A stretch of 44,857 nt of DNA from Paracoccaceae bacterium (GTDB lineage: Bacteria > Pseudomonadota > Alphaproteobacteria > Rhodobacterales > Rhodobacteraceae), in assembly GCA_019634215.1 (NCBI GenBank), contig JAHQVS010000139.1, positions 1 through 44,857 on the forward strand, in the 5' to 3' direction. The notes under the pieces are model-generated. The model did no database searches. It was not told the DNA's origin and was given only the letters and a program-made list of their open reading frames with translations. This document shows positions 9,549 through 44,857 of the stretch, piece after piece. Position 1 is the first letter of the stretch. Each line of letters starts with the position of its first letter. Both the position numbers and the translations under genes were made by a program.

Positions 9549-9578
9549 CCGGGCGCGAAACAAGCGAGTCCGCAGTCA

Positions 9579-11065: not shown

Positions 11066-11112
11066 ACAGATAGCGCTAATCCATTGAGATTTGAAGAGCG
11101 TCTGCGCTGTTA

Positions 11113-11607
11113 TCAGTTCGCCGTCGACCAAATGTGCCAATAGGGCGCGGCGTAGACCCAATAACCGGCTGGTGCTTCCGCGCCGCACCAGCGCCCGCCG
11201 CCCCAGTGGCCGTACTCATGCAGCGCGCCGTAAGTTTGTTCATCTTCTGGGCAATGCAACCTGCTGATAAGGTTGGCGTATTTTCCGCCCAAGCTGGCCT
11301 GAACCGCCAGATCTGCTTGATCGGAAACGGCGCCCCACACATACCAGACCGGGGCCATCCACACCCAATATCCCGCAGGTCCCTCCTGCCCGCACCAGGG
11401 GCCGCCGCCCCAATAACCGTAATCATGAAAATCGCCGTATCGCTCTTGGTCTTGCGGACAGTGAATCTTGGTGATCAATTTGGTGTAAGCGCCTCCTGCG
11501 TCGGCGGTTTTCGCAGGATTCTCCGCCACCGCCATCGGCGATTTCGTCATCACGAACACCACCATGAAGCACGCGGCTACTGCGGCCAGGGGATGTTTTA
11601 CGTGCAT
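11113..11607 (-). CDS. Secreted aromatic-rich protein with two tandem ~51-aa repeats
   Basis: 164 aa. Residues 1-28 are a signal peptide ending AVA. The mature protein is two copies of one unit (about 40-91 and 109-160), joined by a short linker. Each copy has HCP(Q/E)D(Q/E), then YG..H(D/E)YG(Y/H)WGGG.WCG, then PAGYWV..AP.W..W. Each has two Cys (50/72 and 119/141), so one disulfide per repeat is likely. Trp, Tyr and Gly content is very high. I know no family for it; similar short WGGG..CG..GYWV modules occur in exported proteins of unknown role. Its start lies only 2 bp from the stop of the upstream DUF1194 gene, suggesting one operon. Confidence 0.75.
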   Translation of the reverse strand: MHVKHPLAAVAACFMVVFVMTKSPMAVAENPAKTADAGGAYTKLITKIHCPQDQERYGDFHDYGYWGGGPWCGQEGPAGYWVWMAPVWYVWGAVSDQADLAVQASLGGKYANLISRLHCPEDEQTYGALHEYGHWGGGRWCGAEAPAGYWVYAAPYWHIWSTAN

Positions 11608-11609
11608 TC

Positions 11610-12332
11610 TTACCCTCCCGATGGTGGCGCCGTTTCTCCCTGGTGTGGCTTCATCGAGACTGAGGGTGACAGTTCACGCAACAGTTTTCGCTCCATCGCG
11701 GCGGCGTAGCCGGTGTAGTCGTCAATATCGATCACGAATGCGCCCGGCCCCTGAATCACCTCGTCGAGATAGTAGGAGGCCGGGTCGGGCGTCGCGCCAA
11801 CAATGACGAGGCCATTGATTCGAAGCCCCTCCAACACTCCGCGATCCCGGAAGTAGGCCGGCTTGCGGCCGTTATTGTTCACTCCGTCGCCAGAGACGTC
11901 GATGATGCGCTGGCCACACGGGACCTGATTGAGTCCATGGAGATAGGCGCCGTACCGGAGCGCCTCGCCGACGGCTGTGGCCCGGCCGCGCCCGTGGCGT
12001 CCGCGGCGCGCGACATGGGCTGCGAACTGCTCAATCGCCGACCGGCTGTCGAGCCGGGTCCAGCCGACGATCAACTCTTGCTCATAGCCGCCGCCCCAAA
12101 GGTAAGCCGCCGCCATCACGCCAGACCCCTTGGGCGAGAGAATCGCCGCCTGTACCGGCTCCGACAGCAATGCGGCCGCCAGCCCTCTCGCTTGCAACTG
12201 CCGTTCGGCGGCGTCGACGCTCTTCGACATGTCGAGCGCTAAGGCCAAGGCGGCCTTGCACTCGAATGACAGAGCGGTGGCCGGCGTGACCACGCCCACC
12301 ACCGCCAGCGCCACGGCGCGTAATATTTTCAC
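11610..12332 (-). CDS. DUF1194 (von Willebrand A-like) secreted protein
   Basis: 240 aa. The signal peptide is roughly 1-22. The DUF1194 VWA-like fold follows: LALALDMSKSVDAAE (MIDAS-type DxSxS), QRIIDVSGDGVNNNG and INGLVIVGATPDPASYYLDE with the terminal QGPGAFVIDIDDYTGYAAAM. A Cys just before the first strand (C25) and one near the middle could pair. The role is unknown; VWA folds usually mediate metal-dependent protein contacts. A second DUF1194 gene lies at 20359-21087. The repeat-protein gene follows 2 bp downstream and is probably co-transcribed. Confidence 0.85.
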   Translation of the reverse strand: MKILRAVALAVVGVVTPATALSFECKAALALALDMSKSVDAAERQLQARGLAAALLSEPVQAAILSPKGSGVMAAAYLWGGGYEQELIVGWTRLDSRSAIEQFAAHVARRGRHGRGRATAVGEALRYGAYLHGLNQVPCGQRIIDVSGDGVNNNGRKPAYFRDRGVLEGLRINGLVIVGATPDPASYYLDEVIQGPGAFVIDIDDYTGYAAAMERKLLRELSPSVSMKPHQGETAPPSGG

Positions 12333-12342
12333 CGAGAGCGAC

Positions 12343-12774
12343 TCACCAACTGCCGGTGTTCTGCATGCTCGCCCACGGCTCAGCCGACGGCAGAGACTCG
12401 CCCCGTTGCAGCAGCTCGATCGAGATGCCGTCCGGGGACTTCACGAACGCCATGTGGCCGTCGCGCGGTGGGCGGTTGATGGTGACGCCTGAGTCCATAA
12501 GTTTCTGACATGTCTCGTAAATATTATCGACGCGATAGGCGAGATGGCCGAAATTACGGCCACCGCCATAGTCTTCGTCGGAGCCCCAGTTATAGGTTAG
12601 CTCAATCTCATTTCCGGGGCCGCCGCCTGGTTCGCTGAGGAACACCAGGGTCGCTTTCGCCCCATCCAGGTCCTTGCGCCGGGTCTCGACCAAGCCCAGA
12701 AGATCGCAATAGAACTTCTTCGAGGCTTCAATATCTTTCACTCGCACCATGGTGTGAAGGAATTCGATCGACAT
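12343..12774 (-). CDS. gloA: Lactoylglutathione lyase (glyoxalase I)
   Basis: 143 aa from the ATG at 12774, which is preceded by AGGAG; the longer open frame adds 24 residues foreign to the family. The enzyme converts the methylglyoxal-glutathione hemithioacetal to lactoylglutathione. Seen are [20 protein letters not shown] (metal His), the middle [10 protein letters not shown] (Glu), [20 protein letters not shown] (His) and [16 protein letters not shown] (Glu), the four metal ligands of GloA. Its stop is 10 bp from the start of the DUF1194 gene. It is divergent from thyX, with about 110 bp for both promoters. Confidence 0.93.
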
Positions 12775-12884
12775 TTGCGCTCCTATGTGTGTCTTGCTAC
12801 TAGATGTTGATGGTACGCTGTTGTGGTTGGAGGCGTCGCGCTTCATTGGCGCACCCTTGATCTCAAATCCCCGGGGGAAAGACT

Positions 12885-13835
12885 ATGTCGTTAACGCGTG
12901 TGCAACAGGCTGAAATCGACGCCCAGCGACGCGAAACCGCAGCCACGCGGCGGGTGGTCGCCTCGGGCTTGGAGGAGCGGCTCTATGAAGCGGTCCCGGT
13001 GCTCGATCATGGCTTCGTCCGCGCTATCGACTATATGGGCGACGACGCCGCCATTGTGCAGGCGGCGCGCGTCTCCTACGGGCGTGGCACCAAGGCGGCG
13101 CGGGACGACCGGGGGTTGATCCGCTACCTGATGCGCCATTGGCATTCAACGCCCTTCGAGATGTGTGAAATCAAGCTGCATGTGAAATTGCCGATCTTTG
13201 TAGCACGCCAATGGATTCGGCACCGCACCGCCAATGTGAACGAGATCTCGGCGCGTTATTCAATCCTTGATCGGGAGATATACGTTCCAGCCCCTGAGCA
13301 TTTAGCCGCTCAATCCGTCGCCAACCGCCAGGGGCGTGGCGCGGTTCTGGAGGGCGCCGAGGCGGAGCGGGCGCTCGCGATACTGCGGGACGACTCCACC
13401 CGTGCGTATGGGCATTATGAAGAGCTGCTGAATGAGCGCGACGGCGCGCCGATCGACCCTGAGCGCACCGGTCTGGCGCGTGAGTTGGCGCGGATGAATC
13501 TAACGCTTAACACCTATACCCAGTGGTATTGGAAGACCGACCTGCACAACCTGTTGCATTTTCTGCGCTTGCGGGCCGACGCGCATGCGCAGTATGAAAT
13601 CCGCGTCTACGCCGACGCGATAGCGGCTTTGACCCAAGCATGGGTCCCGCTCGCCTATGAGGCGTTCGAAGATTACCGCCTGAACGCCGCTCATATCTCA
13701 GGCCCGGCGCTTGAGGTGGTGCGGCGGATGTTGATCGGAGAGCAGGTGACGGCTGAAACCAGCGGGTTGTCTGCGGGGGAATGGCGGGAATTGTCTACAG
13801 TGCTTCAGACCACAGCGAGCGGACGCGCCGAGTGA
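12885..13835 (+). CDS. thyX: Flavin-dependent thymidylate synthase
   Basis: 316 aa. It makes dTMP from dUMP with methylene-tetrahydrofolate and FAD/NADPH. The ThyX signature [15 protein letters not shown] (112-126) fits RHRx7S with the FAD-contacting residues. Other family blocks are [48 protein letters not shown] and [15 protein letters not shown]. The ATG follows a GGGGGAAAG stretch. The stop overlaps the start of the next gene (TGATG). ThyX normally substitutes for ThyA; no thyA is in the window. Confidence 0.96.
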
Positions 13836-14662
13836 TGAAATCCAAACGGGTCCGTAGGCTCGCGTTTCTGGCGCAGTCGCACTTATTCGGCGGCGCCCCC
13901 GCGCCGGAGGCCCTGCCGCGTCTGGTTTTCACAGTGACCAATGGGCGTTCCGGCTCTGGCTATCTACACGCCTTGTTCGAACGCATTGACGGTGTTCAGG
14001 CCGAGCATGAGCCGTCGCCACGATTTGACGCGCTGATGCGGGATGTGCAGTTCGCCCCGGACCTCGCCGCACGCTTTTGGCGGGCGATCAAGTTGCCGGC
14101 GATCTCGAAGGTCCAGCAGCCAGTATACGCTGAAACCTCACACTTGTTTTGTAAGGGCTTTGTAGAACCGTTGATCGCGCTTGGCGCGCCGTTCGACATT
14201 GTGGTTCTGCGCCGGGACAAGAGGGCGATCGCCCGGTCGCTGTGGCGCAATGGGTCGGTTCCAGGCCGCTCCAAGCGCGGACAGCAATTTTTCCTCGACC
14301 CGGATTTGGAGGTCGCGGTGGCGCTGCCTGAGTGGCGCGAGCTGAGCGACTACCAACTCTGCTACTGGCATGTTCTTGAGACGGAGGCCCGACAACGGCA
14401 CTACGCTGAGATGGTTTCCCAGACGGGCGGGCGCGTGGTGGATACGTCGGTTGAAACGTTGAACGATTTACAGGAGGTGCGGCGCGTGCTGTCGGCGCTT
14501 GACATCCCCTTGAACGCGCCGTCCGAGCGGCGATTGGCCGAATTGGTGGGCGAGCGTGTTAATCATCGCGATCATGTCGCGGGGCCGACCGCCGAAGACC
14601 CGGCTTTGGATCAGGAGGAGCAGGCGGTTCTGGAGCGCATCACGCAACACGCTGCCAGCTAG
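13835..14662 (+). CDS. Sulfotransferase-like P-loop protein
   Basis: 275 aa from the ATG at 13835, which shares its first base with the thyX stop (TGATG). The N-terminal TNGRSGSGYLHALFER has the PAPS 5'-phosphosulfate loop pattern (R-S-G-S/T-x-x). The segment FDIVVLRRDKRAIARSLWRN resembles the 3'-phosphate (R..S) motif of sulfotransferases. The C-terminus has NDLQEVRRVLSALDIPL as in the family. The acceptor is unknown. A general P-loop of this type also occurs in proteins without sulfotransferase activity. Coupling to thyX suggests co-expression, not a shared pathway. Confidence 0.65.
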   Translation: MKSKRVRRLAFLAQSHLFGGAPAPEALPRLVFTVTNGRSGSGYLHALFERIDGVQAEHEPSPRFDALMRDVQFAPDLAARFWRAIKLPAISKVQQPVYAETSHLFCKGFVEPLIALGAPFDIVVLRRDKRAIARSLWRNGSVPGRSKRGQQFFLDPDLEVAVALPEWRELSDYQLCYWHVLETEARQRHYAEMVSQTGGRVVDTSVETLNDLQEVRRVLSALDIPLNAPSERRLAELVGERVNHRDHVAGPTAEDPALDQEEQAVLERITQHAAS

Positions 14663-14702
14663 AGCGAGTTCGGGGCGCATTGGCGCACCTCAACCGCTCT
14701 AG
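14659..14702. repeat. CTAGAGCG-bounded palindromic repeat
   Basis: Inverted ends CTAGAGCG (14659-14666) and CGCTCTAG (14695-14702) flank a GC-rich middle (cggggcgcattggcgcacc). The left end overlaps the stop of the preceding gene. Another CTAGA-type half site lies at about 14727. These resemble the intergenic CTAGAGC elements at 31.7-31.9 kb and may also act as a weak terminator, being followed by a short T run. Confidence 0.5.
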
Positions 14703-14757
14703 CTTCTGTTTTTCAAAGATAAACTCTAGAACTTAGCTCAGGCTGATCTCAGTTTGC

Positions 14758-14979
14758 TCAGCTATCGCTGGGCTGGCGCAGCTGATTGATCTGATCTTGC
14801 AGATCGCCAGTGGTGACGCCCAGGTCGATGCCCAGAGCTGGCAGAATGCCGAGCACGCCGAAGCCGATCAGGAACAAGGCGACGATCCAGTTCAGCAGGT
14901 CAGCCTTGATCAGGGTGAGCACGCCGCCGATCAGGGCGATCAAGGGCAGCAGGGGAAGTCCAGCGACATCGGTTGGCAT
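14758..14979 (-). CDS. DUF3096-like small membrane protein
   Basis: 73 aa with two transmembrane helices (LPLIALIGGVLTLIKADLLN and WIVALFLIGFGVLGILPAL) and a short polar tail. The LLNWIVALFLIGFG..GIL pattern matches the DUF3096 family of small inner-membrane proteins of unknown function. It is monocistronic, with a GAGGATG-like site before the ATG. Confidence 0.6.
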   Translation of the reverse strand: MPTDVAGLPLLPLIALIGGVLTLIKADLLNWIVALFLIGFGVLGILPALGIDLGVTTGDLQDQINQLRQPSDS

Positions 14980-15135
14980 TAGGTCATCCTCTCCAAATAA
15001 CAGTCTTTATGCGGCGACGATCCGGTTACGCTGGTGCGCAACCTTTTGTCGCGCCCTGCGTCTACGCGCAAAACGTCGCAGCGTGACCGTTTCACGATGC
15101 CGCAGTACGGATCAGTCGGCGGCGCGCAAATTCTC

Positions 15136-32735: not shown

Positions 32736-33956
32736 ATGGCCAGAGATGAAAGCACTTGCGGCGAGTCCCCGACGGAACTCGCACCCCAAACCCACCTGGT
32801 GCACGCTGGCGCTCGGCGCAGCGCCTATGGCGAGACCTCCGAGGCGTTGTTTCTCACGCAAGGCTTTCTCTACCCCAACGCCGAGGCGGCTGAGGCGCGA
32901 TTCAAAGGCGAGGGACCCGAGGACAGCTTTATCTACGCCCGCTATGGCAACCCGACGGTGGCGATGTTCGAGGACCGAATCGCCGCCTATGAAGGCGCCG
33001 AGGCTGCATTCGCCACCGCTTCCGGGATGGCGGCGATGCACGCCTCGATGTTCGCCCAGGTGCAGGCCGGGGATCATGTGGTCGCCTCTCGGGCGCTGTT
33101 CGGCTCCTGCTTGTATGTGATTGAGACCCTGTTGCCGCGTTTCGGGGTGGCGGTTGATTTGGTTGATGGGACGAATCTTGACGACTGGGCGGCGGCGGCG
33201 CGGGCGGAGACCAAGCTGTTCTTCCTGGAGAGCCCTTCGAACCCGACCCTTGAGATCATCGACATTCCAGCCGTCGCGGAGATCGCCCATTCTGTCGGCG
33301 CGACGCTGGTGGTGGATAATGTGTTCGCCACCCCGATGTTCCAGCGGCCACTGCAGCTCGGCGCGGATATGGTGATGTACTCCGCCACCAAGCATATTGA
33401 CGGCCAGGGGCGCTGCCTCGGCGGGGTGCTGTTGGGGGATGAGGAGACGATCAGGGGCCCGATCGAGACCTTCATAAAGCACACCGGCGGCGCCATGAGC
33501 CCGTTCAATGCGTGGGTGATGCTTAAGGGCATGGAGACTCTGGAGCTGCGCTGCAGGGCCCAGGCTGAGAGCGCGAAAAAGCTGGCGGATGCCGTGGCGG
33601 CGCATCCCCGGGTCGCGCGGGTGCTATATCCGGGCCGCGAGGATCATCCCCAACATGCGCTGGCGATGCGGCAGATGCAGGCGGGGGGACAGGTGGTCTC
33701 TATTGAGATTACCGGTGGCCGAGACGCGGCTTTTATGTTTCTGAACGCGCTGCAAGTGATTGGGATCTCCAACAATCTCGGCGATGCGAAATCGCTAGTC
33801 ACCCACCCGGCGACGACGACGCATCAACGATTGAGCCCTGAACTGCGCGCCGAACTGGGCATCAGCGACGGCCTCGTGCGGCTGTCTTTGGGGCTGGAGG
33901 ATGCGGGAGATTTGGTCAACGACGTGTTGCGCGCGCTCGATCAAGCCGGAGGTTAA
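32736..33956 (+). CDS. metZ: O-succinylhomoserine sulfhydrylase
   Basis: 406 aa from the ATG at 32736 (MARDESTCGESPTELA); upstream codons overlap the amtB remnant. A PLP enzyme of the Cys/Met metabolism family that makes homocysteine from O-succinylhomoserine and sulfide. Seen are LVHAGARRSAYGETSEALFL, YARYGNPTVAMFEDRIAAYE, FLESPSNPTLEIIDI, VVDNVFATP and the Schiff-base Lys219 in YSATKHIDGQGR. The GETSEALFLTQGF start and the Q-rich ending TTTHQRL.P fit MetZ better than MetB or MetC. No SAM-II riboswitch could be recognised upstream. Confidence 0.9.
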   Translation: MARDESTCGESPTELAPQTHLVHAGARRSAYGETSEALFLTQGFLYPNAEAAEARFKGEGPEDSFIYARYGNPTVAMFEDRIAAYEGAEAAFATASGMAAMHASMFAQVQAGDHVVASRALFGSCLYVIETLLPRFGVAVDLVDGTNLDDWAAAARAETKLFFLESPSNPTLEIIDIPAVAEIAHSVGATLVVDNVFATPMFQRPLQLGADMVMYSATKHIDGQGRCLGGVLLGDEETIRGPIETFIKHTGGAMSPFNAWVMLKGMETLELRCRAQAESAKKLADAVAAHPRVARVLYPGREDHPQHALAMRQMQAGGQVVSIEITGGRDAAFMFLNALQVIGISNNLGDAKSLVTHPATTTHQRLSPELRAELGISDGLVRLSLGLEDAGDLVNDVLRALDQAGG

Positions 33957-34059
33957 CGCTCCTGATCGCCCTGTTTCACGCTGGACAAGCGCGGCGCCAA
34001 GCTGGCAGCCTTGCCACCGCGTGGGTGTGGGCCAAACGCAGAAGGCGGGAGCGGCGGAA

Positions 34060-34494
34060 ATGAGCATGCAAGACGGCGCGGCGGAAGGCGACGGGCTGGA
34101 GCCCTATCAAAAAACCACTGACGGCGTTGTGATCAAGGTTCAGCCCTATTTTCTGGAAAGCCATTCGCGCCCGGATTTCAGCCACTATGTATGGGCTTAC
34201 CGCGTTCGTATCGCCAACACCCGTGAGGGGGCGGTGCAGTTGAAGAACCGCTATTGGCGTATCATGGACAGCTCCGGCGGCGTTCAGGAGGTGCATGGCG
34301 AGGGGGTTGTGGGCGAACAGCCATTGATCCAACCCGGCGACGTTTACGAATATACCTCAGGCGCGCCGTTGAATACGCCCTCCGGGGTAATGTACGGCCG
34401 CTATGAAATGGAGACCCCAGAGGGGGAAAGATTGGATGTGGAAATTCCAACCTTCTCGCTCGATAGTCCGCATGAAGTGAGACGTGCGAACTAA
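34060..34494 (+). CDS. apaG: ApaG domain protein
   Basis: 144 aa from the ATG at 34060; the upstream open frame overlaps metZ and is non-homologous. It is a fibronectin-III-like fold: VVIKVQPYFLESHSRPDFSH followed by YVWAYRVRIANT, QLKNRYWRIMDSSGGVQEVH, GEGVVGEQPLIQPGDVYEYT and MYGRYEMETPEGERLDVEIP, i.e. the full ApaG pattern. Named from cobalt/magnesium resistance in Salmonella, but its biochemical role is unclear. It lies 103 bp after metZ and 17 bp before folE, in the same direction. Confidence 0.92.
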   Translation: MSMQDGAAEGDGLEPYQKTTDGVVIKVQPYFLESHSRPDFSHYVWAYRVRIANTREGAVQLKNRYWRIMDSSGGVQEVHGEGVVGEQPLIQPGDVYEYTSGAPLNTPSGVMYGRYEMETPEGERLDVEIPTFSLDSPHEVRRAN

Positions 34495-34511: not shown

Positions 34512-35183
34512 ATGGTCCGGGAGGCCAAAGTGAACAAGCACGACGTCAAATCCTTCGATACTGACCGCAGCGCCGGTGAGGCTGAGGCGCGGGAGATCCT
34601 TCGCCCTTCCGAGGAAGAGGCGATGGCGGCCGTGCGCACTCTGTTGCGCTGGGCCGGGGACGATCCAGAGCGCGAGGGGCTGCTCGATACGCCGGGCCGG
34701 GTGGTGCGGGCCTATCGTGAATGGTTCCGTGGCTATGATGAGGACCCCGTCGCCTACATGCAGCGCACCTTCGAAGAGGTCGAAGGCTATGATGAATTAG
34801 TGGTGCTGCGCGATATCCGGTTCGAGAGCTATTGCGAGCATCATCTCGCACCCATCATCGGCCACGCCCATGTCGGGTATCTGCCGAAAGATCGGGTGGT
34901 GGGCATCTCAAAGCTGGCTCGAGTGGTCGAGACCTACTCCAAGCGCCTGCAGGTGCAGGAAAAAATGACGGCGCAGATCGCTAAATGCATCGATGACGTG
35001 CTGCAGCCGCGCGGGGTGGCGGTGGTCATCGAGGGCGAGCATCACTGCATGAGCACGCGCGGCGTGTATAAGCCGGGTGTGACTATGGTGACGAGCACGA
35101 TGCTGGGTGTGATGCGGAATAATCCGACCACGCGGAAGGAATTTCTAGATTTGATTGGAAACCCCGTTAACCGGAGATCTTAA
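34512..35183 (+). CDS. folE: GTP cyclohydrolase I
   Basis: 223 aa. It converts GTP to dihydroneopterin triphosphate, the first step of folate synthesis. The zinc ligands and signatures are intact: [20 protein letters not shown] (Cys and His), [20 protein letters not shown] and [20 protein letters not shown] (second Cys). The ~45-residue N-terminal extension is typical. The start may be a few codons further in; the ATG at 34512 lacks a strong ribosome site. It is the last gene of the metZ-apaG-folE stretch before a strong terminator. Confidence 0.95.
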
Positions 35184-35220: not shown

Positions 35221-35250
35221 AAAAAAGACGGGGCGCGCCCCGTCTTTTTT
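35221..35250. terminator. Perfect bidirectional rho-independent terminator
   Basis: A perfect 30-bp palindrome: A6-GACGGGGCG then CGCCCCGTC-T6. It gives a GC-rich stem with a T run on either strand. It sits between the convergent folE and the 818-aa gene and should stop both transcripts. Confidence 0.93.
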
Positions 35251-35314: not shown

Positions 35315-37771
35315 TTAACTCGCCCGGCGCATCCCATTGGCCTTTTTGGCCGCGGCGCTGTTGATGCCTTTCAGGAAGATATCGAACGTATCGTCGACAT
35401 TGACATCCTCCTCCCGGTCCACTTCGGACAGGTGCTGCGCCGCCGGCTTGCCGCGATGCGCTTTCACCGTCTCGAATTGAGCGTCCAGGATTTGGGCCGG
35501 ACGGCGCGCGACCTCGCCCGCTTCCTCCGCCATGCGCACCGCTTCCGGATTGCTCGGCGTGTCGACCCGGTGGAACACCGTGGTCGCGCCGGAGGCGTCG
35601 TTTGCAGCGACGGGCGCGGTTTCAACGGTGGCGGTCAGGGCCACTGGCTGGCGCGGCAGCGTCGAATTGGACGCAGGGGCGCGCCCAACACGGTTTTGAT
35701 GCTCCAGCACTTCCTTACGCAGCCGCTCCAAGAACCCGGCTTTCAGGTAGAAAACCGATGGGTCCGAAGGATCAGCCACCGCCATGTGGACGGTTTTCAG
35801 CGTCATGGCGGTTGATTTGACCTCATCGCGCAGACTGCTCTCCGCAGGTACATCACGCAGCGCCAGCCGCGCCTCGGCGATGAACTTCGGCGGCAGCGGC
35901 GCGTCGATGGGCGGAGTGTCGACATAGCGCAGCAACGCCTTGGCGGTGCGGATGTTCTGCGGGTCGTCCTCGCGTTGGGCGAGATCGACCGACAGCGCCC
36001 GCATCACATTCTCCTCGGTGTTCCGATCCCACTGGCCGCGCAGATACTTTGAGACGCGTGGACGGGTGGTCACCGCGCCGATAAGGCCGCTGAACAGCAC
36101 CAGAAGATCGATAAAGGCCGCAATCGCCAGCGCGAAGTAGGACAGCTTTTCACCGCCGAGGAAGGCGTTCACCGTCTTCACGAAGCGCGAAGCGTTGGGG
36201 TCCTCCTCCAATACGAGACGATCGATCTCGCCGCGCAAGCTCGACACCGCCCCCGCCGGCAGGCCGGAGAAGCTGACGCAGTTGCGGCCATAATCGACCG
36301 CCTGGGCGAAGTTCATCTTGCCGACCGCCTGGGCGTTCGCCCCGCCGACAACGCACTCCCGCTCCAGCGTGCGCAGGTTTTCGACCGAGACGTTGATCGG
36401 GTTCATAAACTCAGCCATGCGGGCGCGGTCGCAGGTCAGATCGCCAGCGCGCGTGGCCAATTCGGGGTTGGCGCGCATCATCTCCAGCAGGGTGGCGCAT
36501 TGCGCCGCCGCCGCGTTGAATGGCTCCAGCTCCAGCTTGGTTGCGAAGGCGGCGAGGTTGGCGCGCAGGGCTTCGACCTCGCTGTCCAGCCCGCGAGGAC
36601 CAGCGTCGGCGCCGTCGTTGATCTTGGATCCGCTGAGACGTTTGATTTCTTGCTCAATCGCCGCCAACGGCGCCGCAACGCTGGAGGCGTCGCCGCTGGA
36701 CATGGCGGCGCGATGCCGCTCCAGCGCGTCGTCGATTACCTGCAGATCAGCACGGGCTTGGGTGAACAAACGATCCTTGGTCTCGGCTTCGGCGGCCATA
36801 ATGTTGCGCTCGTCGCGCAATTGCCGCCATACCGGGCCGCGTCCAGCCGGGCGATCAGCGGAACCACCGGTCGCCTCAGCTTTCATCCGGCCTTCTGCGA
36901 CCACCACCTGCTCACGGGCGGAGTCGCGCTCGGCCCGCAATTGCTCGACCTTGTCGGCCAGAGCCGGGCGTTCTTGTTCAAGGCGGCCCAATTCCCGTTT
37001 GGCCGCCTCAATCCGATCGGTTGCGCTGGACTTGGTTTGCAGCAGCGCCGCACGCTCTTCTTCAAGCGTTGCGATGCGGGCTGCCGCGTCGCGGGCGCGC
37101 TGTTGAAATTGGGCGTCGATCACCTCTCGCGCGGCGGCGGCGCGGTCGGCCACGGCGGTGACCCCGTCGCGCCAAGTGGTGTACACCTCACTGTCCAGCA
37201 GCGCCTCAACCCGCTCGCGCCGCTCGGCTAGAGCGAGGGCGTGCAGTTCAGAGACGGTGTCCTCCACCGCACGGTGAATCCGGGTCTCCCGGGTGCGGGC
37301 CTGCAGCTCTTCATCGTTAATGGTCTCGAACAGCGCCACCCAGGAGAAGAACACCGAGGTCGCGAAGCAGACCAGAAACACGAAGATCGAGAACCAGGGC
37401 GTCGGTTCTCGGTCGGAGATGGCGTAGCCGATCTTCCAGGCCGTCACAAACAACAGCGCCTGAATCGCGAACACGATGCAGAATGTGATGAACCACACCG
37501 GCATAAAGTTCAGCATGCCGGCGAAAGTGGTGAAGAACGATGCGACCGACAGCAAAATCGAGCCGATCATCAGCGACAGCAGATAGGGCTGCGTCACCGC
37601 TTCCTTGAATGCGCGGCCCATCATCTCGCGCATTTCTGTCAGGAGGTCTGGTTCTTCGATCGTTTGGGGGCGCATTCCGCCCCAACCGGTGCTTTGAAAA
37701 CGACCGGCTGCGCCGCCAAAACGCGGGCGCGGACGGTGGACGGCTGCGCGTAAACGCTCAAAACCTTTCAT
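35315..37771 (-). CDS. Four-TM protein with large periplasmic coiled coil, part of the right-end cluster
   Basis: 818 aa, no family recognised. Three helices lie near the N-terminus (about 63-86, 91-112 and 126-148). A long charged coiled coil follows at about 150-400, then a helical region with four Cys (425, 447, 473, 498), a fourth helix (about 543-566) and a ~250-residue tail. The tail ends with a low-complexity stretch and VDREEDVNVDDTFDIFLKGI. Assuming the basic N-terminus (RLRAAVHRPRPRFGG) is inside, the coiled coil and Cys would be periplasmic and the tail cytoplasmic. A ribosome site AGGTAG precedes the ATG. It is separated by 235 bp from the other cluster genes, so it may have its own promoter. 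It ends at a strong terminator. Confidence 0.75.
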   Translation of the reverse strand: MKGFERLRAAVHRPRPRFGGAAGRFQSTGWGGMRPQTIEEPDLLTEMREMMGRAFKEAVTQPYLLSLMIGSILLSVASFFTTFAGMLNFMPVWFITFCIVFAIQALLFVTAWKIGYAISDREPTPWFSIFVFLVCFATSVFFSWVALFETINDEELQARTRETRIHRAVEDTVSELHALALAERRERVEALLDSEVYTTWRDGVTAVADRAAAAREVIDAQFQQRARDAAARIATLEEERAALLQTKSSATDRIEAAKRELGRLEQERPALADKVEQLRAERDSAREQVVVAEGRMKAEATGGSADRPAGRGPVWRQLRDERNIMAAEAETKDRLFTQARADLQVIDDALERHRAAMSSGDASSVAAPLAAIEQEIKRLSGSKINDGADAGPRGLDSEVEALRANLAAFATKLELEPFNAAAAQCATLLEMMRANPELATRAGDLTCDRARMAEFMNPINVSVENLRTLERECVVGGANAQAVGKMNFAQAVDYGRNCVSFSGLPAGAVSSLRGEIDRLVLEEDPNASRFVKTVNAFLGGEKLSYFALAIAAFIDLLVLFSGLIGAVTTRPRVSKYLRGQWDRNTEENVMRALSVDLAQREDDPQNIRTAKALLRYVDTPPIDAPLPPKFIAEARLALRDVPAESSLRDEVKSTAMTLKTVHMAVADPSDPSVFYLKAGFLERLRKEVLEHQNRVGRAPASNSTLPRQPVALTATVETAPVAANDASGATTVFHRVDTPSNPEAVRMAEEAGEVARRPAQILDAQFETVKAHRGKPAAQHLSEVDREEDVNVDDTFDIFLKGINSAAAKKANGMRRAS

Positions 37772-37839
37772 AGTATTCTACCTGTAACCGCTCTCTCAGA
37801 ATCGCATCTCTAGCGATTCCCCGCCCCCCTGGCCACGAA

Positions 37840-37872
37840 ATCTTGCGTATGCTGGCGTGGGAGACGCAAGAT
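37840..37872. promoter_or_regulatory. Inverted repeat in the gap of the right-end cluster
   Basis: ATCTTGCGT (37840-37848) and ACGCAAGAT (37864-37872) form a perfect 9-bp inverted repeat with a 15-base spacer, in the 235-bp gap upstream of the 818-aa gene. It could be an operator or an RNA hairpin. No T run follows on the minus strand. Confidence 0.4.
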
Positions 37873-38006
37873 CGCCGCAGAGTGCGCTGTTATCGCCCCG
37901 AAATGGGCGTGACACTGACGCCAGAGCCTACATCAAAAACAGCGGACAAGGTCGAAATATGGCGGTCGTGGCGGCGCGGGCGCAGAGAGGTTCTAGCCGA
38001 TGCGAG

Positions 38007-39347
38007 TCAGCGCCACTCGGCTCGGTTGAACACGATCACTTTGGAGCGCAGGCGCAAATCGCGGGCCTCGTCGATATACCCAAAGCTCTCGCAATCGATC
38101 ACGAACGCGTCTGATCCGCCGCCAGCGTTGGCGACCACGGTGCGCCGCACCGGCTCCAGCTCCCGCAGGCCCTGAGAGGTGTCCGACCAGATCTCGCCTT
38201 CGTCCGGCTCCAGCGGGCTGAGCAGCCGGGCGTTCTCAACAAACACGCCTTCGCGCCGGAGCAGGGTGCGCACCCCGGTGGCGACGGCGGTGAGGCCGAG
38301 GCGGAAATCTCGCCAATCATCATAAGTCGGATAATAGGCCAGTGTGAGCGCCTCGGTGCGAAATAGCGCGTGTGGCCAGGCTTCCTCGACGATTTCAGGG
38401 TCGATGCCGCCCTGCTCCGCGTGGGCGGCGCGCTGCGCCATCAACTCACGCATCCAATCCTCATAGAGGGACTCCGCCGACAGGGCGACGAAATCAGGGT
38501 CGGCGCGTAAAGACGCCCCGGCAGAGCGCATGATCCGCCCGCCCTCCGAGATCAGCTCCCACGGCGCGGCTTTGGCGGCGTCGCGGCTTGAGCTGTCCCG
38601 TGACAGCGGTGAGCCGCCGTCGGCCTTGATCTGCGCCAGCTCTTGCTCGGCGGCGTCCAGCTTGTGACGCATTTTTTCGACCGAGCCGCCCAGGCGGTTC
38701 AGATAATCGATGGCGCCGTCGGCGGTCTCGGTCTCGATGTTGAAGCGCTCGCGGAAGAAAGCGAGCAGCCGCTCTGATTCCTCACCGCCCTTGGCGCCGC
38801 CAGCGCCGCCGCCGCTGGAGACCGGCGGCTCGTCATCATCAAAGCCAGGCTCTAGCGGGCCGTCGACAGGGGCTCTCCCGCCCTTGACCGCCTTGGCGCC
38901 CTTCCCGCGCACAGCGGGGGCGGCGGCGTCAACCCGTCGGCTCCGGCCTCGGCTGATCCGTGCGCCGAGAAAGCCGCCGAAGGCTGCGGCGACGGCGAGC
39001 AGCGCCATGGGCGCGCCATATTGCCCCAACAGCGGCTTGGCCTGCGCTTGGGCCGTACTGATAAAGTCATTCCCGCCCGCGCGCGCGGCGGCGGCGGCTT
39101 CGGCGCGGCGGTCCTGCGGCGGGGCGTCAACGGGCTCCAGCGGGGTGCTGTCCACTGGGCTCGGGGCGGGCGGGGTGATGATGCCGAGATCATTCTGTTG
39201 CGCGAGGGCGGTTGGCGCGTCGACGGGACTCAAGCCTAAGATCACACCCATCGCCAGAGCGATCGCCGTCCCGGCGCCGCGCTTAAGCCATGCGGTCCGC
39301 GCCGCGTTCCGGTTCAGATTCTCGCCGCTGGTCATGTGTCGACTCAT
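38007..39347 (-). CDS. Exported single-TM protein with cytoplasmic domain, part of the right-end cluster
   Basis: 446 aa. It has a Sec signal peptide (about 18-50, AIALAMGVILGLSPVDAPTA) and a short Pro-rich periplasmic part. One helix (about 111-129, GAPMALLAVAAAFGGFLGAR) is followed by basic residues (SRGRSRR), so the remaining ~310 residues should be cytoplasmic. This part has an acidic/Gly linker, a short coiled coil near 215-245 and a C-terminal domain (ALFRTEALTLAYYPTYDDWR...VIDCESFGYID) of no family known to me. The start overlaps the upstream stop (ATGA). It probably anchors or connects cytoplasmic cluster components to the membrane. Confidence 0.72.
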   Translation of the reverse strand: MSRHMTSGENLNRNAARTAWLKRGAGTAIALAMGVILGLSPVDAPTALAQQNDLGIITPPAPSPVDSTPLEPVDAPPQDRRAEAAAAARAGGNDFISTAQAQAKPLLGQYGAPMALLAVAAAFGGFLGARISRGRSRRVDAAAPAVRGKGAKAVKGGRAPVDGPLEPGFDDDEPPVSSGGGAGGAKGGEESERLLAFFRERFNIETETADGAIDYLNRLGGSVEKMRHKLDAAEQELAQIKADGGSPLSRDSSSRDAAKAAPWELISEGGRIMRSAGASLRADPDFVALSAESLYEDWMRELMAQRAAHAEQGGIDPEIVEEAWPHALFRTEALTLAYYPTYDDWRDFRLGLTAVATGVRTLLRREGVFVENARLLSPLEPDEGEIWSDTSQGLRELEPVRRTVVANAGGGSDAFVIDCESFGYIDEARDLRLRSKVIVFNRAEWR

Positions 39348-42300
39348 TCGCCTCGCGCGCTTTCACTACTGCTGACGGCCTGATTGCTGGCGCGCCGCTC
39401 CGCCATATCGTCCGGCCACCCCGGCGGCGCGTGCTCTTGCCTGACGTCAAACGGCGCGCGATGCAAGACCGGGAAAGGGCGGAATGGCGCAGCGTCAACC
39501 GAAAAAGGCGTCTCGCCAGCGATTAACGACAGGCGTCCATCCGGGTCTAGGCGGATTTGTGGCGGCGGGCTTTCGGAGGTGAGGCCAAGTGCGCGCGCCT
39601 CGCCGCCCAAACCCACCGGAGTAAGCAGCGTGCTGGCGAAAGGGTCGGTGTTGAGCGCCTCGGCGGTGAGGCCTGCTGGGGCCTCCATCAACCGCAATCG
39701 CCCAACATAAGCCCCGCCCATCGCCGGGAACGAGCCCTCTGGAATCAGTCGCCGCGCCCGCTCGTCGCCGTTTACCTCACGCTCAGTGATTAGCATCGCG
39801 TACCGGCCCGAGCCGGGGCCGCCCGCCTCGGCGGCCAGGCGCTCGCCGTACCCCTCGGCGGTCAACCGGGCCGCGCCCAGCGCCGCCGCCGCCTTCATGG
39901 TTTCCGCCCGGTCCGGCTGGGGGAAGGCGAAGCGCTCGGCGACGCCCCCGGCCTCCAATGTTTGCGCCAGCCGATCGTACACCAGCGGAAACAGCGCTCC
40001 TCGACCGCTGACCACTAACATATCAACCGCTTCCAGCTCCGGCAGCGCGAGGCGAATGGCGCGGTCGCAGACGAAATCGAGCAATTCCGTCATCGCCGCT
40101 CCGGCGACCGCCTCCCGGCTCATCAACAGTTTCAGCGCGCCGTTGCGGCGGGTCAGGCGTAGGCCTGGGTCAATCTCAATGATCTCGCCCTCGGCGAAGC
40201 CACTGCCATTCTTGTCGCCGTTCAGGCCGCCTCGTGTCGCCACCGGCCATAGCGACCCGCCAGCGACGGAGCGGGCGTCACCGACCTGAACCTCCATCTC
40301 GACGCCGTCGGCCCAACCATAACGGCCGCCGGATGAGGCGATGCGGCAGGCGTCGGTCAGGGCGGCTTTCGCCTCCGCGATTGCTCGGGCCATCCGCCGC
40401 TTCATCAGCCGCTCTGGGGCTTCGGCGCGAGTCTCCTCAATCGGCGCCAGCAGATCCTCTGCATAGAGCAGCGGCGCGCTGTCTGGGAGGCGCGACAACG
40501 CAGCGTGAACGATGAAATATATCGTCAGATCAATGGCTTCCGCACCTATCGCCGCTCCAGCGCGCGCGGCGATCTCCAAATCCCGCACCTCCGCTCCCAG
40601 GCCGGGCGCGGCGCGTTCGGCGGTGGCCAACGCCAAGCTCAGCTCTCGTGCGCCGAGGTCAAAAGTCAGCACCCTGAGCCCTGCCTCCTCGTCGATCGGC
40701 AGACGATCGATGTAATAGGCCGCCGTCGCGTCTGCGGCGGGGATCACGGCGACGGCGCGCGGGTCCAGCTCTAGGCCAAGGCGCCGCGCCAAGGCCCCAG
40801 CCGACTCCGCCGCCCGCCGCCGGCCTTGCGGACCCGTCCGACTCGGACAGGTCAACGCCAACGAAGCGACCGGCGCGGTGGAGAGCGGTTCGGCGTAAGC
40901 GAGATGCAGGTCGCCAAGCTCATGCAACGCGTCGCCCAGGGCGAGATCGATCGCAATCCGGTCCAGAGGCCCCCCGGCGTCCACCGCGCGCACTGGCGCG
41001 GCCAGCGGTTCCGCGCCGCCCCACGCTGGCAGTTTCGACATGAGCCCGCGCAGTTGCGCCGCCCCCGCCTCCGCAGCGCCACGCGCTGGCAGAGACACCG
41101 CGAATCGGCGCTTGAGGTGCTGCGCAGCGGCCAAAGCATCGACCTTCAGGGCCGCTTCCGGCGCGACGCTCCACAGACTTTCCGGCAACGCCTCGGCCCG
41201 CCAACAGGCCTCCGGCTCAAGGCCGACAGCCCCGTCCAGAAACGGCGTTTCAGCCGCCGAGGATGCCGGAAACGCCGCCGTCAGAGCCTTGCCGAGCGGG
41301 ATCGTCGCCGCCAACCCCGACCCGTCCGCGCGGGCTGCGGAAACGCTGTCGGCCCCGAAATCAATCGCCAAGGTGTTGGGCCGCAGCGCGTCGTCGAGCC
41401 GGAAGGCGCGGCGTAGCTCGGCGACGCCAGTCATTGCGCCGCTCACAGTTAATTTCAGGCGCAGATGCAACGGGCGGTCGGGATCAAAAGTCTCGCCCAG
41501 CGCCTCCATATACATTTGCCGCGCACTCGGCGCCGCCACTGTCAGCCGCGCGAACCGTGCCCCGGGAGAGAGCGTCGCCGAAGGCTCCGTGGAGTGTTGA
41601 AACAACGCGTTGGCCAGCCGCGTCAGGGCCATGATCGGCGCGCCGTTATGGTCGAGCAGCTCCGCCTCGGCCTCTAGCCGCACGCTGGAAGGCCCGGCGC
41701 GCAGGGACGGCGGCTGGCCATGCAGCGTGACCTCCACCGTCAACAGCCGGGCGGTCGGGGTTCTGCCGCTGGGGTCGTCAAGCGCGGCTGGCGTAACGCG
41801 CCGCTCAGGTAGCGGTGGCGGTCCATCCGCGATCTCAGGCTTCGGCTCGCCCGCCAGAGTAAACGCGCCCAACTCCCGCGTCCAATCCGCGCCGTCTGAG
41901 ACGATGCGCGCCTCCACCCGGCCCGGATCTGTCGGCGGCGCCACCCGAAGAACATGCTCTAGCGACCATGCGATCTTGGTGCGGGCGCCGCCCCGCCCGG
42001 AGAGGCCGGGGCCAATCAACAGCGCCTGAAGCGGCCCCTCCATCAGTTCCGCCGGCTCCGAGACGCCGCGCGGCCCGCAGCGCAGCCGTAGCACCCTTTT
42101 GGCGCGAAACGCCCCGCCAGGGCTTGGGGTCAGCGTCACCGCCCCGCCATCCTGCTGAGTGGCCGGATCAATGATCGACAGCGCATTGGTGACGTCGGGG
42201 TGCCAGCCATGCGCTTGCAGCCGGGTCTCGATCCGTTTGGCGATCGGCGAGACGCCCCGCGCCGACACGATTATCTCGGCGATGTCGACGTAAGCCTCGC

Positions 42301-43027
42301 TCTCGGTCAGCACCGGATATAGCGCCCGCAACTCCGGGCGGCGGTCCGATGGCGGGTCGAGACGGCCAAAGGCGCGGCGGTCGACGAGTGCGCGCAGATC
42401 GATGCGCAAGCTGTTCGGCGGCCACGGCTCACGGGCGAATTTGACTTTTAAAACATGCTGTTCTGCCGCCGGGGCGCCGGAGATCGCCCCATCCCGCCGC
42501 AGGGTGAACGGAACGGTTAGGGTGACGGTTTCCGGGTCCGTGCCCTCAAGCGCCGCCGAAGGTTGGATCTCCTCATCCATCACGGCCGCCGGGCCGAATC
42601 GGGCCGCCGCCCCGCGCGCCGTCTCCCGCGCGCCCCGCGCAGCCGAGGCGCTGGTGAGCGCTGGCGTGTCCTCTTCCGGCGCCAAAGGATCGATTATCTG
42701 TTGATCGACGGCGCTGAGCCCGCTGGCGTCGACCGCCAACCACACGCTGTACTCCCCTGGCGTTAACGCCAATTCAGTTCGCAGCGGCGATTCCGCTCCA
42801 GCGGCGGCGGCCGGGTTAGGGTCTTGAAAACCAACCAAGGGCCGCCCCGGCGTCAGCGTCAGTCCCAACTCAGGCGGCGGCGTGTAGGCGCCGATCGAGG
42901 CCGACACCACTTCCGTGGCGCCTTCGGGGCCGGGTTGCTCCGGCGCCCAGACTTGGAACAGAGCCACGGTGGCGGAGTCGCCGAGTGAAAACGGCGCGTC
43001 GATCTCCCAAACGCGGGGCGAACTCAT
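39344..43027 (-). CDS. Giant protein with divergent Hsp70/actin-fold ATPase core, part of the right-end cluster
   Basis: 1227 aa. The core from about 550 to 1060 has the ATPase landmarks of the Hsp70/actin superfamily: phosphate-1 NTLAIDFGADSVSAA (551-565), phosphate-2 LRVLTFDLGARELSLAL (784-800), AARAGAAIGAEAIDLTI (820-836, like Hsp70 LGGEDFD), RLMKRRMARAIAEAKAALT (873-891, like the Hsp70 R..CE.AK.LS helix) and the adenosine motif DMLVVSGRGALFPLV (1002-1016). The first ~545 residues are a beta-rich, Pro/Ala/Gly-rich extension, and ~160 residues follow the core. The size and plan recall the SrfB 'virulence factor' family, but I cannot confirm that. It overlaps both neighbours by 4 bp. Confidence 0.7.
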   Translation of the reverse strand: MSSPRVWEIDAPFSLGDSATVALFQVWAPEQPGPEGATEVVSASIGAYTPPPELGLTLTPGRPLVGFQDPNPAAAAGAESPLRTELALTPGEYSVWLAVDASGLSAVDQQIIDPLAPEEDTPALTSASAARGARETARGAAARFGPAAVMDEEIQPSAALEGTDPETVTLTVPFTLRRDGAISGAPAAEQHVLKVKFAREPWPPNSLRIDLRALVDRRAFGRLDPPSDRRPELRALYPVLTESEAYVDIAEIIVSARGVSPIAKRIETRLQAHGWHPDVTNALSIIDPATQQDGGAVTLTPSPGGAFRAKRVLRLRCGPRGVSEPAELMEGPLQALLIGPGLSGRGGARTKIAWSLEHVLRVAPPTDPGRVEARIVSDGADWTRELGAFTLAGEPKPEIADGPPPLPERRVTPAALDDPSGRTPTARLLTVEVTLHGQPPSLRAGPSSVRLEAEAELLDHNGAPIMALTRLANALFQHSTEPSATLSPGARFARLTVAAPSARQMYMEALGETFDPDRPLHLRLKLTVSGAMTGVAELRRAFRLDDALRPNTLAIDFGADSVSAARADGSGLAATIPLGKALTAAFPASSAAETPFLDGAVGLEPEACWRAEALPESLWSVAPEAALKVDALAAAQHLKRRFAVSLPARGAAEAGAAQLRGLMSKLPAWGGAEPLAAPVRAVDAGGPLDRIAIDLALGDALHELGDLHLAYAEPLSTAPVASLALTCPSRTGPQGRRRAAESAGALARRLGLELDPRAVAVIPAADATAAYYIDRLPIDEEAGLRVLTFDLGARELSLALATAERAAPGLGAEVRDLEIAARAGAAIGAEAIDLTIYFIVHAALSRLPDSAPLLYAEDLLAPIEETRAEAPERLMKRRMARAIAEAKAALTDACRIASSGGRYGWADGVEMEVQVGDARSVAGGSLWPVATRGGLNGDKNGSGFAEGEIIEIDPGLRLTRRNGALKLLMSREAVAGAAMTELLDFVCDRAIRLALPELEAVDMLVVSGRGALFPLVYDRLAQTLEAGGVAERFAFPQPDRAETMKAAAALGAARLTAEGYGERLAAEAGGPGSGRYAMLITEREVNGDERARRLIPEGSFPAMGGAYVGRLRLMEAPAGLTAEALNTDPFASTLLTPVGLGGEARALGLTSESPPPQIRLDPDGRLSLIAGETPFSVDAAPFRPFPVLHRAPFDVRQEHAPPGWPDDMAERRASNQAVSSSESARGE

Positions 43028-44817
43028 TTCTGCGGTCTCCGGCGGGCGGCGAGGGCGTTGATGACGGCGTCGCTTAACACGTCGTCGGTCGGGGTGCGCG
43101 GCTCATCACGGTCGGCGTTGGCCACCTGAGCTGGGCGGGCCGCCGGCGCAGCAGGGGCTGTGGTGACGGCGGTTTCAGCGGCCTTCAGTCCGCCTTCCGC
43201 GCCATATTCTTCGGCGGAGGCGGCGTCGCGCAGGCGTTCGATCTCAAGGGCGATCTCCGGCCAGGTCTCGGGCGGTCCGGAGAGTTTCAATCGCAGCCGC
43301 CGGGCCGGACGGGCGCGCCAATCGGCGCCGTCGGCAAGCCTGTCCAACTCGGCGCAGACCTCGCGCCAGACCCGGCGCGCCGCAGGCCAATCGCCATGTT
43401 CGGTGATCGCGTCGATGTCAGCGGCTGCGGCGGAAATCAGCGCGGCGGCGGCCTCACGGGCGTCGGCGGGCCGTTGGACCCGTCCCAACGCGGTGCGGGC
43501 GGCGGCGGCGGCGGACAGCGTCTCTCCCATCAGCTCTCGTTGCCGTGCTTGCGCCTGGGGCGAGATCCAGGCCGGGGCGGGCCGTTTCGCCGCGCCGCGC
43601 CGGGACAGCAGCCGTAACTGAGTCACTTCAGCCGCAGCCTCTAGGCGTTGGTCTAGAGCGCTGACAGCCGAGGCGCGATATGTGGCGTCCGCCCGCACCG
43701 CCGCCGCGACATGTATGTAAGTTTCGCCCAATCCGCGCGCGCCAGCCGCCAGCGCCCGCAGCGAGGTCGCGGCCAGATCACGCGCAACCGGGGTTTTCAG
43801 CCGCCGCGCGATTTTCGCGGCTTCCAGCACCAGCGCCCTAGCGGGCGAATCCTCGTCCTGCGCCGGCTCTGTGGCCCCGACCTCAACCGTGTCGCTCTGC
43901 GCCAAACCCAACGCCGCCAGCAGCGCCGTGGTGGCGGCGTCGACCCGCTCCGGCGCCCGTTCCGGCCACAGATCACCCACCTTGGCCTCAGCCTCCGGTC
44001 CGTTGGCGGCGATCGACGCCGCTGTCGCCGAAGCTTTGGTCCACAACGCTTCGACCCCTGGCGGGCGCGGTGCGCCCAACGGTTCCAGAACAGCGCTCAA
44101 CGCGATCAGATCTGCGGCGACGGCGGTGCGAGCGCGGGCGACCCGCTCGGCCCCACGGGCCGTCGCCGCCAGGCTGTTGTCCGGTGCTGCCTGGCGAGTG
44201 GTGTCTTCCTCGCTCTCGCTTATCTCTTTGTTTTCGCTGCTCTCCCCCTCCGGCTCAGCCCCTCGTACCGCCGCCGCTAAGGAGCGGAAATCCGGAAAAG
44301 TCTCCCCCAAGATCAACTCCGCCAATGCGATTTCCGTTGGGGTGGTTTTGAGCGCCCGTGTCGCCGACGCCGGGTCGGCGCATAGCGCCTGACTCTCGAC
44401 ATCCTCCAGCGTCAGCCCGGACCGCCGCATCAGCGCCGCGTCGCCGCCCAAACGTGTAAACCGCCATAGCGCCCGCGCCGCTGGCCAGGGCAGCGCCTCC
44501 AGCCACCGCCCCGTATCCGGCGAGGCCAACGCCTCCACCATGGCCCCGGCGACGCCGACCGGTCCGCCCGCACGCCGCGCCGGGGCCGCGAACGCCCGCG
44601 CCAGGGTTTCCGCCAATGCCGGATCGGCCCGCACCGCCGAGACCACATCGCCCATATCGGTGAATTCACGCAGAACCACAGCGTCAATCTTTAGCTGTTT
44701 CAATGCTTTAAGGGCCGGTTCCTGGCCCTCCGGCGGCGCAATTTGGGCGTCTACGAACGCGGCCATCAGCTCCGGCGTAAAGGCGTCGGCGCCTGAGAGG
44801 TTCAGCTCCAGCCCCAT
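43024..44817 (-). CDS. Ala-rich helical protein, part of the right-end cluster
   Basis: 597 aa from the ATG at 44817 (MGLELNLSGADAFTPELM), chosen because it lies 4 bases after the stop of an upstream frame; an in-frame ATG at 44844 is possible. It is soluble, with no signal or membrane segment and almost entirely predicted helix. An acidic Ser/Glu linker is near the middle (SSENKEISESEEDTT), and the C-terminus is Ala/Pro-rich ending NALAARRRPQK. I recognise no family or catalytic motif. Its stop overlaps the start of the ATPase-core gene (ATGA), so the two are translated together and likely interact. Confidence 0.7.
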   Translation of the reverse strand: MGLELNLSGADAFTPELMAAFVDAQIAPPEGQEPALKALKQLKIDAVVLREFTDMGDVVSAVRADPALAETLARAFAAPARRAGGPVGVAGAMVEALASPDTGRWLEALPWPAARALWRFTRLGGDAALMRRSGLTLEDVESQALCADPASATRALKTTPTEIALAELILGETFPDFRSLAAAVRGAEPEGESSENKEISESEEDTTRQAAPDNSLAATARGAERVARARTAVAADLIALSAVLEPLGAPRPPGVEALWTKASATAASIAANGPEAEAKVGDLWPERAPERVDAATTALLAALGLAQSDTVEVGATEPAQDEDSPARALVLEAAKIARRLKTPVARDLAATSLRALAAGARGLGETYIHVAAAVRADATYRASAVSALDQRLEAAAEVTQLRLLSRRGAAKRPAPAWISPQAQARQRELMGETLSAAAAARTALGRVQRPADAREAAAALISAAAADIDAITEHGDWPAARRVWREVCAELDRLADGADWRARPARRLRLKLSGPPETWPEIALEIERLRDAASAEEYGAEGGLKAAETAVTTAPAAPAARPAQVANADRDEPRTPTDDVLSDAVINALAARRRPQK

Positions 44818-44821
44818 CGGG

Positions 44822-44857
44822 TCATGCGGGCGTCGCCGCCGCATCGTCTTGCCCCAA
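44822..44857 (-). CDS. C-terminal end of a further upstream cluster gene
   Basis: A minus-strand frame enters at the right edge and reads LGQDDAAATPA before a TGA at 44824-44822, 4 bp before the next ATG. The close spacing suggests that one more gene of the cluster lies just beyond the window. Only 11 codons are visible, so nothing can be said of its function. Confidence 0.45.
   Translation of the reverse strand: MGQDDAAATPA

Follow-up and report, generated by a model that had tools for sequence, protein, structure and literature searches.

A candidate SEDS and class B penicillin-binding protein machine with an Hsp70-like component, carried in part by a Paracoccaceae contig

The window analysed here is an entire contig of 44857 bases (JAHQVS010000139.1) from a metagenome-assembled genome (MAG) of a Paracoccaceae bacterium (G000; 3.90 Mb, 326 contigs, 82% complete), and our subject is a set of four minus-strand open reading frames (ORFs) that spans positions 35315-44857. 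An earlier annotation made from the letters alone (the original prediction) described this set as a candidate undescribed envelope machine built on an Hsp70-like ATPase. Because the corresponding locus in related genomes also encodes a SEDS (RodA-like) glycosyltransferase and a class B penicillin-binding protein (bPBP), the envelope machine becomes, in our reading, a peptidoglycan synthesis machine. We judge the chance to be a little better than even (roughly 0.55) that the window holds part of an undescribed SEDS-bPBP machine for peptidoglycan synthesis that is patchily present in the family; the best reading of the window part is that it comprises the Hsp70-like, bitopic and four-transmembrane (4-TM) components. 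The bacterial wall is built by SEDS-bPBP pairs, which are also targets for drugs; the pairs described so far take their direction from filaments (MreB, FtsZ) or from sporulation programmes. By its gene families the cluster is of the SEDS-bPBP kind, with what appears to be an unusual Hsp70/GTPase control layer.

Gene content and order in related genomes

The evidence consists of gene content, gene order, protein families and conserved motifs. When 394 genomes of the family, each from a different genus, were searched with the 1227-amino-acid (aa) Hsp70-like protein of the window, homologues were found, besides the window's own genome, in G574 (E = 2.7e-121) and G381 (E = 3.2e-68); ten weak, short matches (E 0.0015-0.036) among the 13 matching genomes were dropped. 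G574 and G381 encode homologues of all four window proteins on one strand and in identical order, which bears out the proposal that the four genes belong together; the gene neighbourhood is conserved as a full set in these two genomes and in parts in more. Between their bitopic and 4-TM genes lie three extra genes, encoding a soluble-looking protein of 527-555 aa with no Pfam family (P8), a bPBP and a SEDS protein. Upstream, in divergent orientation, are genes for a 421-513 aa P-loop protein that carries GTPase-like motifs and for a protein of 1138-1197 aa.

The SEDS proteins matched Pfam FTSW_RODA_SPOVE at E = 1.9e-10 (40.7 bits) in G574 and 4.7e-9 (36.1 bits) in G381, with a cut-off of 26.4, and the bPBPs matched Pfam Transpeptidase at 8e-9 (35.5 bits) and 1.8e-10 (41 bits), respectively, with a cut-off of 22.1. 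The SxxK, SxN and KTGT motifs are kept in all seven PBPs of the loci described below, and [DS]DF and GQPMT are kept in six of the six SEDS proteins aligned; the Asp of [DS]DF we take to be the conserved periplasmic Asp of SEDS proteins. As far as sequence can tell, the relatives' SEDS-bPBP pair should be active. Local hhalign comparisons scored the SEDS profile at 75.9% against RodA and 2.6% against FtsW, and the PBP profile at 95.2% against PBP2 and 40.1% against PBP3, and PDB searches with the two profiles returned no matches. A PDB search with the P8 profile returned a pair of teneurin-like repeat proteins, at whole-sequence E of 7.8e-6 and 9.5e-6 but with no single stretch significant, and one other protein at E = 0.39; these were set aside as matches between repeats. 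An FHA domain had been a first impression for P8, and Pfam shows none.

The distribution of the cluster was followed with a PBP profile in the same 394 genomes; the PBP was the bait, and its presence at each locus is thus by construction. Matches were obtained in 115 genomes, of which seven were strong (G574, G381, G016, G480, G502, G019 and G254; E 0 to 1.9e-16) and 108 were left out (E 3.6e-11 to 9.9e-6), the latter having the look of ordinary PBPs that align only near the C-terminus (about columns 796-980 in listed rows). Neighbourhoods of 20-40 kb were read around each of the seven loci. P8 was present at all seven (499-638 aa; weak, at E 2e-4, in G254 and G502), the Hsp70-like gene at six, SEDS at six by hidden Markov model or as query, and a GTPase relative at five. 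Only the first 424 codons of the G016 SEDS gene lie in the fetched stretch, near a contig end. The GTPase relative was not found in 35 kb of G502 and 32 kb of G019, and in G480 it lies downstream and not beside the first gene. Hsp70-like proteins were recognised in G480 at E = 2.5e-17 and in G254 at 1.8e-25, and those of G502 and G019, taken as a pair, scored 97.7% (E = 1.5e-12) against the Hsp70-like profile. On this evidence SEDS, PBP, P8 and Hsp70-like genes make up a firm core of the predicted machine, and the cluster appears rare and patchily present in the family.

Other searches returned the window's own genome only: the 1227-aa protein (P0002) among 61 close relatives, the bitopic protein (P0003) among 190 genomes of the class, and the 4-TM profile (A1) among 337 genomes of the class. 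The A1 profile also missed G480, despite a 4-TM gene of similar layout there, so absence beyond the family does not follow. Plasmid sequences searched by tblastn with P0002, the 4-TM protein (P0004) and the Hsp70-like protein and PBP of G480 gave no matches. Scans of genome contigs (P0002, P0003) and of viral contigs (P0002, A11), made with short exact patterns that mostly reach close relatives, gave none either.

Two further features of these loci were observed. G502 and G019 (L092-L095) share conserved genes of 451/512 aa before P8 and 981/967 aa past the 4-TM gene, which match no family described here, including the bitopic and large proteins. In G480 the cluster is followed (L091, about 7700-15000) by genes that by eye are ParB-, phage terminase-, DNA methyltransferase- and Vsr-like, a hint of a mobile region.

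Proteins encoded in the window

The first three window genes are joined by overlaps of 4 bp at 43024-43027 and 39344-39347, as originally reported, and the 4-TM gene begins 235 bp past the bitopic gene (gap at 37772-38006). Codon-position GC content is coding-like in all four ORFs, with third-position values of 0.77-0.80. Pfam, NCBIfam and PADLOC gave nothing above cut-off for the four proteins; PADLOC matches were weak and confined to the 4-TM protein (best E 0.01), the other three having none at E <= 1. The original view that no described system has this set is supported in that no known family covers the four proteins; the relatives add SEDS and bPBP.

The Hsp70-like gene (39344-43027, minus strand) encodes about 540 N-terminal residues with no assignment, an Hsp70-type nucleotide-binding core at about residues 550-1060 and a C-terminus with no assignment. 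A five-member profile of the family scored 96.2% (E = 2.8e-9) against DnaK/HscA/HscC in profile-profile comparison, the E-values here being pairwise and not database-wide. Controls scored 71.5% for MreB, 16.8% for FtsA and 0.0 for PBP2, and none of 20 column shuffles rose above 0.1%. A three-member profile was weaker, at 31% against DnaK alone (FtsA 6.8, MreB 1.4, PBP2 0.06). PDB searches gave nothing with P0002 itself and only DnaK matches, at E 0.31 and 0.35, with the A2 profile. These comparisons support an Hsp70-type core where an Hsp70/actin-type core had been predicted. The phosphate-2 pattern D-x-G-[GA]-x-[TS]-x-D is present in all four aligned relatives (G574, G381, G480 and G254) and fails only in the window copy, which has DLGARELSLA in place of the DLGGGTLDLS, DLGGSSLDLS, DMGASTFDAI and DIGAGTLDAT found among relatives. 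Because part of this motif is lost, ATPase activity of the window copy is doubtful, which weakens the "ATPase" of the original prediction.

The helical protein gene occupies 43024-44857 on the minus strand (ORF as called 43024-44817, 597 aa). Its frame runs open to the contig end, its relatives are longer (P0017, 897 aa; P0019, 1573 aa), and it aligns with their C-terminal part (hhalign -glob 99.7% against the P0017/P0019 profile, columns 542-1172). We therefore judge it truncated: the predicted 597-aa protein is a real ORF, but it is incomplete; the N-terminus is cut off, and what remains is the last 597-610 codons of a gene for a helical, cytoplasmic protein. In blastp it matched an ORF of G574, truncated in that search by the limit of the sequence fetched, at 4e-18 and an ORF of G381 at 4e-5.

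The two membrane proteins fit their earlier descriptions by hydropathy. The bitopic protein (38007-39347, minus strand; 446 aa) has an N-terminal hydrophobic, signal-like stretch at residues 24-42, one later transmembrane segment (TM) at 111-132 and a conserved C-terminal domain at 189-446. It is 49% identical to its G381 homologue and 42% to that of G574 over 259 aa, and 34% identical over 367 aa to that of G016. The 4-TM protein (35315-37771, minus strand; 818 aa) has three TMs within 62-151 and a fourth at 541-570, and its four Cys (425, 447, 473 and 498) all fall between TM3 and TM4 and are invariant in three aligned relatives (G381, G574 and G016), to which it is 57%, 50% and 39% identical. 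Hydropathy and positive charges suggest that its coiled coil is periplasmic and its C-terminal domain cytoplasmic. Taken with the other proteins, this agrees, as a prediction, with the placement across cytoplasm, inner membrane and periplasm proposed before.

Across the 394 genera the 4-TM profile recovered G000, G381, G574 and G016, and a more distant relative at two places in G514; matches in G476, G393 and one extra in G016 were dropped (E 7.5e-5 to 5e-4, coiled-coil parts). The 4-TM homologue is clear in the locus of G381 and G574, and those of G502 and G019 scored 97.7% and 98.6%, with extra N-terminal TMs. The G016 gene sits at a second locus, apart from the PBP. On sequence grounds we regard the membrane partners as firm in three to five genomes and as positional in two.

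The window copy and the split locus of G016

Nothing in the assembly that contains the window (G000) matched the SEDS protein, the PBP, the GTPase or the large protein encoded divergently, although absence is unproven in a genome that is 82% complete. In the 235-bp gap, no remnant of P8, PBP or SEDS was seen by tblastn at E <= 0.1. The 4-TM gene is convergent with a folE-like gene (34512-35183, plus strand), beside which lies an apaG-like gene (33901-34494); both names are provisional, given from sequence, and the folE-like gene lies outside the proposed machine, as genomic context common to the window and G016. In G016 the bitopic and 4-TM genes are likewise together and convergent with folE and apaG genes, which are 82% and 49% identical to those of the window and lie in the matching place (tblastn). 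These neighbours were absent by tblastn from the fetched stretches of G381, G574, G480, G254, G502 and G019. Since G016 has a like short bitopic/4-TM junction, the window junction is a shared arrangement and is unlikely to be an assembly error.

On another contig of G016 lie the P8 and PBP genes, a GTPase gene, a paralogue of the bitopic gene and the first part of the SEDS gene. The presence of parts at two loci in G016 means that the machine can be split, and the copy in the window may be divided in this way, or else be incomplete or in decay. It was also observed that a homologue of the large protein that accompanies the GTPase of G381 and G574 adjoins the bitopic/4-TM pair in G016 (L033:10494-13400), with the GTPase on the other contig.

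A terminator-like hairpin, bidirectional and common to the 4-TM gene and the convergent folE-like gene, lies in the intergenic region at 35225-35246. The "strong terminator" assigned to the end of the 818-aa gene is thus present as a hairpin, but the region has 10 sites of this kind where 7.2 would be expected, and the scan by itself is no evidence.

Proposed mechanism and alternative explanations

In its fullest form (G381 and G574) the machine would comprise a divergent GTPase-like switch with its large companion gene, the helical protein, and the Hsp70-like, bitopic, P8, PBP, SEDS and 4-TM proteins. The GTPase, the helical and Hsp70-like proteins, and the bitopic and 4-TM proteins through their C-terminal domains, would lie in the cytoplasm, the SEDS, 4-TM and bitopic proteins would lie in the membrane, and the PBP domain and the four-Cys coiled coil would reach into the periplasm. 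The 4-TM and bitopic proteins may form a membrane platform, which nucleotide-driven changes in the GTPase and the Hsp70-like protein would assemble or switch from the cytoplasm. The signal would cross the membrane, partly by way of the Cys-bearing coiled coil, and would activate the SEDS-bPBP pair of the cluster, much as MreB/MreC act on RodA-PBP2 in the prevailing model. Topology, complex formation, the direction of control and peptidoglycan as the product are what we infer, the last from the relatives' enzymes. The window copy would work with enzymes encoded elsewhere, work without them, or be decaying.

Several observations weigh against this reading. Neither its enzymes nor the GTPase were found in the window or its assembly, the parts are divided in G016, where no Hsp70-like gene was detected beside the PBP, and the phosphate-2 motif of the window copy is degenerate. 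Pfam HSP70 stayed below its gathering cut-off (20.6) in the four members scanned, with 11.9 bits for P0010, 10.3 bits for the G480 protein and no match at E <= 1 for P0002 and P0016. AF2 predictions from single sequences were uninformative and not used (pLDDT 42.2 for P0002 residues 545-1105, 40.6 for P0003). In the GTPase relatives the G1 and G3 motifs are visible and G4 is degenerate in some members. In G480 and G254 several parts correspond by position only: the gene beside their GTPase is 324-325 aa long, not 1138-1197 (15.4%), and their large proteins do not match the family of the 597-aa protein (P0001); the large helical proteins of these genomes and of the second G016 locus could not be joined to that family. 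The protein in the 4-TM position has the same layout in both and scored singly 7.7% and 3.6%, the two as a pair reaching 93.0% over the C-terminal half only, and the G480 bitopic protein (265 aa) scored 25.8%.

It is possible, though we hold it to be rather unlikely, that the cluster is instead a branch of the GTPase-centric DO-GTPase/GAP1 conflict (immunity-like) class with HSP70 or tubulin. The GTPase, its adjoining gene and the 4-TM protein would then be the core, assembled by Hsp70 or tubulin, and the SEDS-PBP pair would be one of the variable outputs, serving to remodel or block the envelope when the cell is attacked. The patchy presence and modular parts of the cluster fit such a class, as does G514, where the 4-TM relative (hhalign 99.7%) has as neighbours a Tubulin_2 gene (2.9e-44) and a relative of the GTPase (3.8e-24). 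However, DO-GTPase2 remained below cut-off (E 0.077 in G381 and 0.012 in G480; unlisted for G574), and the large proteins beside the GTPase (P0021, P0023) matched no Pfam model at E 0.5, Pfam presumably holding GAP1 models; because DO-GTPase2 is below cut-off and GAP1 undetected, we did not file the cluster in this class. It is nevertheless the closest published one: the sections of PMC7159879 that treat these systems describe GTPase and GAP1 together with HSP70 or tubulin, besides membrane components and domains that bind peptidoglycan. The same sections place the HSP70 systems predominantly in actinobacteria and firmicutes, and the word "penicillin" is absent from the main text of PMC7159879, both of which argue against the assignment. 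The two are thus alike in having a GTPase-like gene with an adjoining gene, Hsp70 or (in G514) Tubulin_2, membrane components and modularity, and unlike in that the family models are below cut-off or absent here and a SEDS-bPBP output is not described in those sections (PMC7159879).

Less likely still, the copy in the window would be an orphan or a locus in decay, its SEDS-PBP segment gone and an inactive Hsp70-like protein and two membrane proteins left. The lack of SEDS, PBP and GTPase matches in the assembly, the degenerate phosphate-2 motif and a 235-bp junction free of gene remnants are what such a remnant would show. Intact reading frames throughout, codon-position GC in the normal range and retention of both the four Cys and the TM layout speak against it, as do the low completeness of the MAG (82%) and the bitopic/4-TM junction beside folE, which is common to G016 and argues against recent deletion or assembly error. 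An SrfABC-type locus, which the original prediction named as the closest idea for the ATPase, is very improbable. Both would join a large Hsp70-like protein with other large proteins; the present cluster has no SrfB family match, since neither SrfB nor SrfC of Pfam, which presumably holds both models, matched P0002, P0010 or P0016 at E <= 1.

Two other known arrangements can be set beside the proposed SEDS-bPBP machine. Like the Rod complex (MreB, MreC, MreD, RodZ, RodA, PBP2), it would bring together a SEDS-bPBP pair, an actin/Hsp70-fold protein in the cytoplasm and a membrane protein with a coiled coil; unlike it, its nucleotide protein scored higher against DnaK/HscA/HscC than against MreB (96.2% and 71.5%, MreB being a single sequence and the comparison not like-for-like), no known family accounts for its 4-TM, bitopic and P8 proteins, it includes a GTPase-like gene as well, and the distribution is patchy. 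The actinobacterial rodA-pbpA-FHA-kinase cluster also has SEDS and bPBP genes beside a soluble-looking protein, whereas no kinase or FHA match was found in the proteins scanned here, and Hsp70-like and 4-TM proteins are present instead. Searches of the open-licence literature on SEDS with Hsp70, FHA or gene neighbourhood, and on DO-GTPase and SrfB/SrfC, found no description of the gene set.

More tentatively than the SEDS-bPBP reading itself, we suggest that the cluster might represent a third type of SEDS-bPBP machine, in addition to the elongasome and the divisome, in which a GTPase and an Hsp70-fold protein take the place of the actin or FtsZ filament and control peptidoglycan synthesis by way of a 4-TM platform that bears Cys residues, and which would link the envelope to HSP70/tubulin GTPase-centric systems. 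Coupling of an Hsp70-fold protein and a GTPase to a SEDS-bPBP pair would be a new control of wall synthesis. If this is true, some of the HSP70/tubulin GTPase-centric systems may be envelope-remodelling machines, and these mostly predicted systems would gain an assayable biochemical output.

The two G514 regions have features of their own. One (L035:56-17970) holds Tubulin_2, large uncharacterised genes, of which one has a secreted-vWA-like start by eye, and the 4-TM and GTPase relatives, resembling a tubulin counterpart of the Hsp70 cluster. In the other (L037:12610-15222) an 870-aa protein with, by eye, a ParA/MinD-like start continues into a 4-TM coiled-coil relative (8e-22) among transposase-like genes. 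Elsewhere in the window, a tmRNA-like gene lies at 10721-11077, with the tag GNDNRAPVALAA; it is marked with an asterisk in the ARAGORN output, which we take to indicate the permuted form.

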